A program made the position numbers and the translations under genes. A stretch of DNA of 64,000 nt from Saprospiraceae bacterium (GTDB taxonomy: Bacteria; Bacteroidota; Bacteroidia; Chitinophagales; Saprospiraceae), in assembly GCA_027080725.1 (NCBI GenBank), contig JALWRC010000017.1, positions 21,773-85,772 of the forward strand. The letters are read 5' to 3'. The notes below the pieces were generated by a model. The model saw only the letters and a list, made by a program, of their open reading frames with translations. It searched no databases and was not told where the DNA came from. Within the stretch, counting starts at the first letter, position 1. Every line of letters starts with the position of its first letter. Positions 53,632-63,796 of this stretch are shown piece after piece.

Positions 53632-53745
53632 TATCTTTAGTATTCTGCACTCTTTTACTTATTGCTAATTACAACTAACTTAGATATGAGTTGTTCTATC
53701 CTGTATTCCTCTATTTTCAGATGCAGCTAATGGGGGCACTTCAAT

Positions 53746-53931
53746 TCAAATGTTTTCTTTGTTCGATTCTCTACCTATTTTGGGATGGATTGCAAGTAAC
53801 TCGGCTGCTTCAATAATAAGGCGGTTTAGTTTTTTACTATAAAGTACTGATTTGTTTCTTTTGTTCCAATACGAAAAAATACATTTTCTATCTTCTTGGG
53901 CTCTTTTAGACCAAATTATTTGTCGAGCCAT
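53746..53931 (-). pseudogene. RelE/ParE-family toxin, C-terminally truncated
   Basis: A 61-residue remnant. The N-terminal half matches Bacteroidota RelE/ParE-type toxins (IIWSKRAQEDRKCIFSYWNKRNKSVLY, then SKKLNRLIIEA and HPKIGRESNKENI), which are normally 90-100 residues long. The frame stops at TGA where full-length relatives continue with an Arg (ENIR...), compatible with a CGA-to-TGA change, but the following bases do not resume the family's C-terminal strands. The part that normally holds the catalytic or gyrase-contacting residues is missing. The start overlaps the antitoxin gene by 16 bases, the usual arrangement. Confidence 0.65.
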
Positions 53932-54155
53932 TCTTCCATCTCTTTATTAGCTTCTGAATGGGACAAGTAATCTCCATTGCGTATTTGACTCCTTGCATCA
54001 GATACTGCTCGTTCCATTTCTTGCGACAACGTATATGGAGATTCGATATCAACCATTTCGATATCCATTAACCGAGAGGCTTCCCGAAGTAACTCGACAT
54101 TCTCAATTGAGCTAATTTTATCTATCAGTTTTTTCTTAAGCTCTGCTGTTGACAT
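53916..54155 (-). CDS. Antitoxin of a RelE/ParE-type module
   Basis: A 79-residue acidic helical protein (MSTAELKKKLIDKISSIENV, ending EANKEMEEWLDK) of a kind regularly found just upstream of RelE/ParE toxins in Bacteroidota. It would bind and neutralise the toxin and may repress the operon. It is intact, while the overlapping toxin gene downstream is truncated. No clear operator was seen upstream. Confidence 0.72.
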   Translation of the reverse strand: MSTAELKKKLIDKISSIENVELLREASRLMDIEMVDIESPYTLSQEMERAVSDARSQIRNGDYLSHSEANKEMEEWLDK

Positions 54156-54323
54156 AATAAAGGCTTTTAATTCATTATTAGAAACAAACTTCTAAAACAA
54201 CTTGTTCCATTACATTTCAACTCTCCTCTTCTTTTCATTTTTTGTTCTAAAAATATAAGGATCTTCCATAAAGTTACTCTTTACCACCTCATTATTGTTT
54301 CTTAAGCTACACTTAGTAACAAA

Positions 54324-54353
54324 CCCTCCAATCGTGGGTATTGCAAAGTGCAC
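54324..54353 (+). repeat. 30-base direct repeat, copy A
   Basis: Begins CCCTCCAATCGTGG and ends CAAAGTGCAC. It matches copy B (54568-54597) at all but four positions. Function unknown. Confidence 0.6.
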
Positions 54354-54547
54354 AAAAATGAGCCTATGCATCGTTTTGTCACCATTTTTGCAGACGACAC
54401 TTCTCAAGCATTTAGCCTATTGGACCGGGCAAAAATACCGCCAAAACGGCTTTAGGTGTTTTTATTTACCCTGCACTTCGCTATGGCTCGTACAGGGTTA
54501 CAAAGGTGACATCCCTACGGGGTTGTTATTGCTTTTCAATATAGAAC

Positions 54548-54597
54548 AGTGCATTTTGCTATACGCACCCTCCATTCGTGGATATCACAAAGTGCAC
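54548..54597 (+). repeat. Junction of two repeat types, copy B
   Basis: The first 30 bases (AGTGCATTTTG ... CCTCCATTC, 54548-54577) recur with three mismatches at 55237-55266. The last 30 bases (54568-54597) recur at 54324-54353. The two repeat units overlap here in CCCTCCATTC, so this may be the most complete copy of a ~50-base element. Confidence 0.6.
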
Positions 54598-54871
54598 ATT
54601 TGTGCTTTGAGTAAAAAGCATTTGTATTCACAACAGAATTCATATATTGACTAGCCTTACTTTTTGGCATTGCCCCAAAAAGTAACAAAAAGGTTGGGTG
54701 TCCTATCAAGCATTTTCTTGACGCACCAAGTATCGTTCTTTTGCCTGATATCTGCGTTCAAATTTTTATCCGTAGCTACGGCTACGCAGAAAAATTTCGC
54801 CTTGCTATCAGACAAAATAACTTCTACTTATCCATCAGAATACGCTTGTCAGGACACAGGCGAAATTAAGA

Positions 54872-54995
54872 GCTAACGATAGTGGGGCGGCCATACCTTC
54901 TGTTGAAGGGAACACGGCAACTATGCTTCGAAGTAAAACTTTGCCTTAATGATATTTAGACCATAGAAGGTATAATAACACTATCCCGGGTTAGC
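54872..54995. repeat. 124-base imperfect inverted repeat (MITE-like or structured RNA)
   Basis: Left arm segments GCTAAC, GATAGTG and ATACCTTCT (54872-54901) pair with right arm segments AGAAGGTAT, CACTATC and GTTAGC (54965-54995), with small internal loops. The central ~60 bases carry a minor hairpin (CCTTCTGTTGAAGG). The layered arms suggest a folded element rather than a terminator. Confidence 0.55.
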
Positions 54996-55232
54996 GCCGG
55001 TTCCCGCTTGGAATTTCGCCGGAATAAGCCATAGAATACATCTATCCTGTATAGTAACCTATGTTGACTTTAACTTTGTCTTTAGAATAGACACCTATTC
55101 TAAAACTACCGACGTCGTTTCTAAACCATAGACATTAACAGATTAATTGTTCTTGTGGCGCAATCAGGAACCGCAGACTACATCCACCTCAGAAGTGACG
55201 TATTATACATCTATCTTCTCAACATTCTTAAA

Positions 55233-55266
55233 TAAAAGTGCATTTTGTAATACACACCCTCCATTC
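55233..55266 (+). repeat. Repeat upstream of recD
   Basis: TAAAAGTGCATTTTGTAATA followed by CACAC (55233-55257) recurs downstream of recB at 63772-63796 with three mismatches. 55237-55266 recurs at 54548-54577. It sits about 70-100 bases before the recD start, where a promoter would be expected. Confidence 0.55.
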
Positions 55267-55333
55267 AGACCATACCCGTATCAAAGGGAAAATCACTACC
55301 TTTATCCTTCTAAAAAAGACGAACGCTTCCGGA

Positions 55334-57091
55334 ATGGATATACACCAAATTTTTGGCAAATACTTTGAAGGGGATGACATCGCCCCGGTGGCCACATTGC
55401 TGTCCAAGCGGTTGGAAGAAGGCAATATCTGCGTGTATGCATCGGACGAAGGGACAGAGGCCGCTTCCCTCCCTCCGTGGTCCAAGCTCAAGGATTCCCC
55501 CTGGGTGGGCTCCCCCGACAGTACCCTAAGTCCCTTCATCCTGGATAACGAGCGCATCTACTTACAGCGCTACTGGACATATGAGACTGCCATTCTGGAT
55601 AAGATCAGGACGCTGCTGTCCTCCCCTGCCCCGCTCCCATCTTATGATGAAATAGCGGCTCTTCCCGGCATTGAACACCCCTCCTCACCCACCGGCCAAA
55701 CGGAAGAGACCGACTGGCAGCGCATTGCCATACTTCACGCATTGAAGTATCGATTGACCATCATAACAGGAGGGCCCGGGACGGGCAAAACGACGACCGT
55801 CGCCCGCTTGCTCGGGATGCTTTACCAATCTTTCCCGACCCTGTCCGCCATCGTCGCCGCTCCGACCGGAAAGGCCGCGGCACGCATGAACGAGTCCCTC
55901 AAAAATGCTTCCGTCCGGTTGGAACTCCCCGACGACACAAGACAAAAACTGCTACATCTCGAAGCCTCCACTATCCACCGTCTGCTCGGTTACCATCCGG
56001 CCACTCGACAGTTCCGCTACAATGCCCAACGGCGGTTGCCCTACACCCTGTTTGTCATAGACGAAGCCTCCATGCTCGACGCCCACCTCTTCGCCCAATT
56101 CATGATCGCCCTCCCCGATGACGCCCGGCTCGTCTTAGTCGGCGACCGGCATCAGCTTTCCGCCGTAGGGGAAGGCTCCATCTTTGGGGATTTGTGCCGG
56201 TCTGCGGGGACCAATGCATCCTTCCCTGAAGAGGAAAGGGAGTATTACCGCCACTTCATGCCCCATGCTTTTTTAACCGGCCCTCCCCCTGCGCAAGAGC
56301 CGGTGACGCTTTTGTCCGGTCATGTTATAGAGCTCCAACACAGCCACCGGTTTGACCCTTCGAAAGGCATCGGTCTCTTCAGCCGGCATGTACTCCACGG
56401 GGAAGCAGACCCCGGCAAGGTCATCCAACCCTTCTTGGGACAGGATACGGCCCTTACCATCCTCCCCGACACTACACACCGTGCATTCGAAGAATTGCTG
56501 CGCCTATATGAGGCATACGCCCGCGAGGAGGACACCTTAGCAGCCCTCAAAAAGCGTGCGGCCATTCGTACCCTGTGCACCACACACGATGGACCGCGTG
56601 GAACCAAAGCGCTCAACCTTGAAATCGAAGCCTACTTGAGAAAGAGAAACCTGCTCGGCACGTCTCAGCCCTTCTACCACAACCAACCCATTCTCATCAC
56701 CGTCAATGACTACCATCTCGGCCTTTACAATGGAGACGAAGGGCTTATCCGCCGCCACCCCGACACCGGAGAGCTGATGGCGTGGTTTGAGGGCGAAGAG
56801 GAGCCCTTGCGCTCCTTTGTCCCGTCTATGCTACAAGGATATGTCACCGCCTTTGCGATGTCCATCCACAAAAGCCAGGGATCCGAGTTCGACACCGTCA
56901 TCGTCGTGCTTCCCGACCGTGCAGACCACCGGATTTTGACACGCGAACTCCTCTACACCGCAGTGACCCGGGCGAAAAACAAAGCCCTGCTCATCGGCTC
57001 CGAATCCATCCTCCTCGAAGCCATCGAAAACAAAATTGAGCGCATGTCCGGCGTCATTCCACGATTAACCCACAGCCCCTCCCAACTCTAA
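55334..57091 (+). CDS. recD: Exodeoxyribonuclease V subunit alpha, RecD helicase
   Basis: The 5'-3' superfamily 1B helicase of the RecBCD enzyme. I start it at 55334 (MDIHQIFGKYFEG), giving 585 residues; the open frame back to 55238 has no family match. Motifs: Walker A GGPGTGKTT (Lys152), Walker B VIDEASMLD, motif III LVGDRHQLSAVGEGSIFGDL, and C-terminal MSIHKSQGSEFDTVIVVLP and YTAVTRAKN. The N-terminal RecD domain that contacts RecC (about 1-125) is present. recC follows after 11 bases. The order recD-recC-recB differs from that of Escherichia coli (recC-ptrA-recB-recD). GC content is clearly higher than in the preceding accessory stretch. Confidence 0.94.
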   Translation: MDIHQIFGKYFEGDDIAPVATLLSKRLEEGNICVYASDEGTEAASLPPWSKLKDSPWVGSPDSTLSPFILDNERIYLQRYWTYETAILDKIRTLLSSPAPLPSYDEIAALPGIEHPSSPTGQTEETDWQRIAILHALKYRLTIITGGPGTGKTTTVARLLGMLYQSFPTLSAIVAAPTGKAAARMNESLKNASVRLELPDDTRQKLLHLEASTIHRLLGYHPATRQFRYNAQRRLPYTLFVIDEASMLDAHLFAQFMIALPDDARLVLVGDRHQLSAVGEGSIFGDLCRSAGTNASFPEEEREYYRHFMPHAFLTGPPPAQEPVTLLSGHVIELQHSHRFDPSKGIGLFSRHVLHGEADPGKVIQPFLGQDTALTILPDTTHRAFEELLRLYEAYAREEDTLAALKKRAAIRTLCTTHDGPRGTKALNLEIEAYLRKRNLLGTSQPFYHNQPILITVNDYHLGLYNGDEGLIRRHPDTGELMAWFEGEEEPLRSFVPSMLQGYVTAFAMSIHKSQGSEFDTVIVVLPDRADHRILTRELLYTAVTRAKNKALLIGSESILLEAIENKIERMSGVIPRLTHSPSQL

Positions 57092-63771: not shown

Positions 63772-63796
63772 TAAAAGTGTAGCTTGTAATACACAC
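63772..63796 (+). repeat. Degenerate repeat copy downstream of recB
   Basis: Matches 55233-55257 at 22 of 25 positions (TAAAAGTG ... TTGTAATACACAC). It lies 29 bases after the recB stop and 150 bases before the next gene start, in the same orientation as the copy upstream of recD. Confidence 0.55.

Follow-up and report, generated by a model that had tools for sequence, protein, structure and literature searches.

The inverted repeat at 54872-54995 is the inner, central piece of a 680-bp MITE without a transposase gene, and this genome contains many such MITEs whose insertion sites keep a constant spacing to putative promoters downstream of them. The best explanation, and in our judgement a highly probable one, is insertion of MITEs into a promoter slot by an ISKra4-like transposase acting in trans: an ISKra4-like enzyme of the Mutator type would recognise the 20-bp ends and insert the element with a 9-bp duplication, the edge of the slot lying 36-39 nt upstream of a Bacteroidota-type -7 box. 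MITE A, and then MITE C, would have been placed in this way next to the promoter of recD, with three copies of one 9-mer as the result, so that the repeat block would have arisen because of repeated insertion into a single promoter slot.

The inverted repeat is internal to a 680-bp MITE

The window (the whole 64,000-nucleotide stretch of DNA analysed) contains a layered inverted repeat exactly where it was originally predicted: an outer arm of 6 pairs (GCTAAC 54872-54877 with GTTAGC 54990-54995), a middle arm of 6 (ATAGTG 54879-54884 with CACTAT 54979-54984) and an inner arm of 9 (ATACCTTCT 54893-54901 with AGAAGGTAT 54965-54973), all 21 of them Watson-Crick, enclose a centre at 54902-54964 that measures 63 bases and had been put at about 60. 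Its description as unlike a terminator agrees with the positions of the three terminator-like sites in 54300-55400, all of which lie outside the segment, and this identity was rejected. Alone, the 124-nt segment folds little better than chance, with a modest signal in each of two runs (-32.1 kcal/mol, z -1.71, 13 of 200 shuffles as good; then z -1.60 on the + strand, 10 of 150 shuffles, and -2.26 on the - strand, 4 of 150). When 11 copies were compared, the full set of 21 Watson-Crick pairs was found in the window copy only; eight others have 15-18 pairs, L024 and L158 have 4-5, and with the helices taken one by one 68, 76 and 79% of cells are paired.

Reading of the edges and alignment of the copies gave the borders of the true unit, which runs from GTGTGTATTACAAARTGCAC to its reverse complement (Table 1). 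The remark that no target-site duplication was obvious holds for the wrong borders only, as CCTCCATTC flanks 54578-55257 on both sides with 9 of 9 positions identical. This unit has the terminal inverted repeats (TIRs), target-site duplication and dispersed copies of a MITE and lacks an internal transposase gene: no ORF of 80 aa lies inside 54578-55257, and two predicted ORFs merely overlap its edges. A small non-autonomous mobile element had thus been named correctly as to kind, but the mobile unit is 54578-55257, within which the segment is internal and without ends of its own.

Table 1. Features of the repeat block and the adjoining recD gene (positions in the window; for MITE C, + is an orientation of convenience and not a known direction of transcription)
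Feature	Position	Strand	Remark
Reported layered inverted repeat	54872-54995	.	crosses helix P2
Outer duplication of MITE A, CCTCCAATC	54325-54333	.	one base off
MITE of family A	54334-54568	+	235 bp; stacked beside C, same kind of ends
Target duplication CCTCCATTC	54569-54577	.	common to MITE A and MITE C
MITE of family C	54578-55257	+	680 bp; true unit holding the repeat; TIR to TIR, exact 9-bp duplication
Left TIR of MITE C	54578-54597	+	3 mismatches to GTGTGTATTACAAARTGCAC
Hairpin TTACTTTTTGGCATTGCCCCAAAAAGTAA	54657-54685	.	22 genome places at 3 mismatches or fewer
Optional long hairpin insert	54695-54857	.	lacking in many copies; borders accurate to within a few bases
Conserved, folded core	54859-55020	.	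162 nt
Helix P1, 5' arm	54859-54867	.	pairs with 55012-55020
Helix P2, 5' arm GGGAACACGGC	54908-54918	.	one bulged base; pairs with 54996-55005
Right TIR of MITE C	55238-55257	-	0 mismatches to consensus
Target duplication CCTCCATTC	55258-55266	.	promoter side of MITE C
Putative -7 box TACCTTTA	55297-55304	+	one mismatch to TAnnTTTG; 39 nt outside right end of C
recD (exonuclease V alpha)	55334-57091	+	NCBIfam TIGR01447, 444 bits, cut-off 310

A search with 54280-55290 returned at least 55 matches, which fall into blocks, and MITE A matched at least 22 further places in the genome, 40 of 178 candidates having been scored in both cases. Two long hairpin inserts are present in some aligned copies of family C and absent from others; the optional insert of Table 1 folds with z -6.5 and -9.2. 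The whole of 54578-55266 folds strongly, at z -6.05 and -6.08 as RNA on the two strands (0 of 20 shuffles each) and at z -7.99 as DNA (0 of 20).

A conserved, folded core and the question of an RNA

The core of MITE C is two- to fourfold less diverged than the sequence beside it. Among 12 copies, the core has a mean pairwise divergence of 0.107 and the hairpin block one of 0.042, as compared to 0.200 in the 5' region and 0.266 in the 3' region; without L024 the corresponding values are 0.061, 0.037, 0.180 and 0.258. The core also folds better than chance, with z -3.85 on the + strand (1 of 150 shuffles as low) and -2.57 on the - strand (0 of 150).

Pairing within the core was analysed in 11 of the 14 whole cores, leaving out three with a second insert together with the partial copies; the 13-copy alignment comprised columns filled in at least 7 copies, and L016 was left out of the folds. 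Helix P2 has 10 of 10 pairs invariant in all 11 copies, and helix P1 shows two compensated changes, one of them visible only once the L013 row is corrected by hand (a gap moved and one base dropped; otherwise its C-G pair counts as unpaired). Because P2 crosses the reported arms, the two would form a pseudoknot or be mutually exclusive. Taken jointly, a structure of 40 pairs has 85.9% pairing versus 84.9% in shuffles (1 of 500), and covariation of 0.026 versus 0.036, with 495 of 500 shuffles at least as high.

A structured RNA, which had been proposed as an identity for the repeat, is a possible one: the core shows low divergence and a better fold than expected by chance, but the reported arms are fully paired in a single copy of 11, the pairing that is conserved best is not theirs and no Rfam family scores above threshold. 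The broader reading, in which the family C core is a functional structured RNA gene, maybe pseudoknotted and carried as MITE cargo, we consider unlikely. Its low divergence relative to both sides, the compensated changes of P1, the constancy of P2 and folds that reach z about -6 for the whole element on either strand argue for such a gene, but the covariation of the 40-pair structure falls below that of its shuffles, the P2 pairs are invariant and therefore uninformative on pairing, either strand could be the transcript and the DNA fold is equally significant. Nor do annotation searches lend it support: Rfam 15 gave 0 matches in the window at the gathering threshold (three in a relaxed search, E 2.5-6.9), and the sole promoter-like site inside family C, of Bacteroidota type with one mismatch, occurs in one of three copies scanned. 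Searches of the window for tRNA and tmRNA gave 0. The case for the core acting as an RNA is thin. Somewhat more doubtful again is a combined reading, in which promoter-seeking MITEs, stacked again and again by the transposase at one set position ahead of many promoters, deliver a species-specific, possibly pseudoknotted module of RNA or of DNA, and the core is conserved for function there, as a transcript or as a promoter-tuning structure bound by protein. Under promoter-slot insertion, the folded core would most likely be kept as a feature of the element itself, with a role as transcribed RNA possible.

MITE ends are phased to promoter motifs

The -7 box of Bacteroidota promoters is TAnnTTTG. 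We examined 157 MITE ends, a sample selected on TIR quality and on membership of families A and C, and excluded 17 that had another TIR within 30 nt outward. Among the 140 non-tandem ends that remained, 37 have an exact outward TAnnTTTG at 36-39 nt (3, 7, 12 and 15 at 36, 37, 38 and 39 nt, respectively), as compared to 16 over the remaining offsets between 0 and 51 combined and 0 at 40 nt; with these 16 motifs in 48 positions as the background, the binomial probability of the peak is about 3e-40. The signal is directional: 160-nt flanks of 138 non-tandem ends hold 61 outward and 15 inward motifs in total, and 40 outward versus 0 inward in the 30-39 nt bin. When one mismatch is allowed, boxes lie at 36-39 nt from 55 of the 140 ends, and other 4-nt blocks contain 2 to 8, except for a second, smaller and unexplained bump at 28-31 nt (15 of 140). 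No -33 motif stood out at the MITE ends.

Counted by element, 37 of 58 two-ended MITEs are accompanied, at 35-41 nt from one or both ends, by a box that departs from the motif at no more than one position. Of the 37, 3 have it on both sides, and the other 21 MITEs lack it on either; in family C a box accompanies 7 of 12 elements, four by the 3' end and three by the 5' end. Outward ORFs that begin with ATG 15-120 nt past the box and span 60 codons or more were found in the 600-nt flanks of 19 of 26 slot ends, as compared to 4 of 26 on the opposite strand and 29 of 69 non-slot ends. From their sequence and position, the phased -7 motifs are predicted to be working promoters.

The phasing peak is weaker in the relatives G027 and G004, where exact boxes lie at 37-39 nt from 3 of 28 and 4 of 41 ends, with 4 and 3 at all other offsets; the G004 sample includes some internal look-alikes. 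At L075:3-335 on the - strand, an ORF with a presumed resemblance to Rpn-type nucleases has a TIR immediately upstream.

A survivor effect, in which insertion is random and only those insertions that spare genes and promoters are kept, would accord with the tendency of bacterial MITEs towards AT-rich intergenic DNA (PMC10969869). Selection alone predicts a broad preference, however, and not 37 ends within 4 nt with no exact motif at 40 nt, nor does it predict stacking with the same 9-mer; we regard this explanation as quite improbable.

Two MITEs are stacked upstream of recD

The window offers a close view of one proposed slot. The putative box beyond MITE C starts 37 nt before the ATG of recD, the first of three genes for RecD, RecC and RecB in order, of which RecD scores above its NCBIfam cut-off and RecC and RecB just below theirs. 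The recD of a genome of the same genus, G001, is 53% identical and has TATCTTTG 42 nt before its ATG; no TIR with 6 or fewer mismatches was found in that locus (4752 bases).

If, as promoter-slot insertion has it, the position of the slot is fixed by the promoter, a further element could insert at the very site used before, and stacking with one 9-mer is expected. MITE C is nearest the promoter and would for that reason have inserted later than MITE A. Among 14 tandem rows for which flanks of 600 nt were available, the gap is 9 in 6 (three junctions, that of the window included) and 6, 7, 10 or 20 in the others. Circular intermediates with 6-10 bp between the ends are mentioned in PMC3942029 and would be another route to tandems; A and C, however, belong to different families.

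Several other features were seen in the surroundings. A degenerate TIR-like end with 6 mismatches lies 7 nt from MITE A (54307-54326, - strand); 0.22 such ends are expected per strand, and we do not claim a third, older MITE to the left of A from this one end, which could be there by chance. Just past the recB stop is a lone TIR-like end with 3 mismatches and no partner in the window (63777-63796, - strand). At approximately 53730-54157 on the - strand, a 79-aa protein without a Pfam match precedes a 61-aa ORF, possibly cut short, whose match to ParE_toxin (27.3 bits, cut-off 23) covers positions 1-48 of 89.

The elements are numerous in one genome

At 3 mismatches or fewer, the 20-bp TIR matches the 3.8-Mb genome 286 times (144 on the + and 142 on the - strand), and a reversed TIR used as a control matches it 0 times. 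The other 59 of 60 genomes searched have 0 to 3 matches each, except for G004 (32), G027 (19) and G031 (8). The 60 TIR pairs examined represent 58 distinct sequences, which fall into five clusters, with 4 to 19 members each, plus two singletons; the ends are common to all clusters, and the interiors are unrelated in most alignments among those listed. Duplications match at 7 or more of 9 positions in 24 of the 58 two-ended elements, a 1-nt shift being allowed, and at fewer than 7 in 34. The MITEs examined in G004 and G027 have ends like ours and no interior match among the best 40 BLAST rows. Two further observations concern interiors: in families D and E (for example L071:238-789 and L068:610-1065) small palindromic modules such as AACGCC..GGCGTCACAGGT are gained and lost, as if small repeats insert into MITEs, and the G004 MITEs (L164-L172), whose ends are related, contain nested palindromes (GCCCACGGTT..AACCGTGGGC and GGCTACCA..TGGTAGCC) unlike those of the own-genome MITEs.

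The 124-nt segment itself recurs at 15 places in its own genome, 12 covering at least 110 of the 124 bases and 3 partial, so the copies that the original prediction had called for do exist. It can hardly be an independent mobile unit or a site like the attC of integrons: GCTAAC/GTTAGC at its borders presumably resembles attC core sites, but conserved complementary core sites are absent (of 11 rows, 3 keep each of the two inner pairs in the GCTAAC arm), its copies run on into the same larger unit and none of the 15 places was seen starting and ending at the segment as a separate insertion.

Among the 60 genomes searched, the core sequence was found in its own genome only. A covariance model of the core, run with strict filters against 396 genomes of the order with 7 candidates scored per listed genome, returned the own genome and two weak matches (E 0.035 and 0.052) that we take as chance. 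Plasmids and phages gave no blastn match, and IMG/VR and GTDB contigs, collections that may omit records near the own genome, gave 0 exact pattern matches, a kind of search that can miss diverged relatives.

An ISKra4-like IS has similar ends

A 1530-bp IS in the relative G002 has MITE-like ends and an exact 9-bp duplication, and its transposase has ISKra4 as best NCBIfam match (168 bits versus a cut-off of 205). This transposase has one match in the own genome, 56% identical, within a 1280-bp IS (C100:27235-28514) with ends that show 3 differences in 20 from the MITE consensus and a duplication, read by eye, of 8 bp. The own transposase likewise has ISKra4 as its best NCBIfam family at 183.7 bits, under the cut-off of 205, and no Pfam family at E 0.01; because both proteins score below the cut-off, we name them ISKra4-like only. 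The own IS is itself phased, with TACCTTTG at 37 nt, and its gene is spread over two overlapping ORFs, a trait described for the ISMich2 group (PMC3942029). An ISKra4-like transposase is the likely mover of these MITEs. Two other candidates were set aside: the two PF01609 transposases of the genome each have one lone TIR-like match (5 or 6 mismatches) and no pair, and the idea that C arose from the ISKra4-like IS by deletion was rejected, the likeness, judged by eye, being limited to the ends.

Comparison with known systems

The phasing offers an explanation of how repeat blocks grow beside genes without breaking them, and a promoter marker read from sequence alone for genomes of this kind. 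It also opens a question to experiment: does the transposase recognise the DNA of the promoter or the polymerase bound there? In family C, the extra-conserved core is a concrete candidate for a selected non-coding module.

Promoter-phased insertion has already been published for autonomous elements of the ISKra4 group and of the TnGBS type; here the same signature appears in a large non-autonomous population, at promoters of Bacteroidota type and with a peak four bases wide. ISKra4-group elements insert 13-17 bp upstream of the promoter -35, and those with symmetric ends have promoters on both sides, in both orientations (Guerillot et al. 2014, PMC3942029). The present MITEs share the fixed promoter distance and the use of both orientations with that group (p-MULT 4, prokaryotic Mutator-like; PMC3942029), which is also the best NCBIfam match of the transposase. 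They differ in that the transposase is below the family cut-off and encoded in two overlapping ORFs, that most copies are non-autonomous and that the promoters are of Bacteroidota type, with TAnnTTTG at -7; the word MITE is absent from the main text of PMC3942029. Within the part of the PMC literature that was searched, we found no report of promoter-phased MITEs.

Among bacterial MITEs, QMITE2 of Coxiella and others are similar in having TIRs of 20-30 bp, direct repeats of 7-9 bp, a folding interior and no transposase gene (PMC10969869); ours differ in length (680 bp as compared to the usual 500), in being promoter-phased and in a core conserved above the rest. BrickBuilt and related MITEs of Porphyromonas gingivalis also belong to a Bacteroidota genome, are intergenic, number about 19 copies and hold a passenger inside, but their ends match the IS5 family, they carry a 23-nt minisatellite and no fixed promoter distance was seen in the accessible text (PMC4596501). 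MITECca01 of Cardinium is likewise a MITE of a Bacteroidota genome with a parental IS, in that case related to ISCca4, and no promoter analysis was seen in the accessible text (PMC9769881). Set beside these systems, the family described here combines a known kind of element, the MITE, with an unusual and sharply measurable targeting rule and a conserved core of candidate function.
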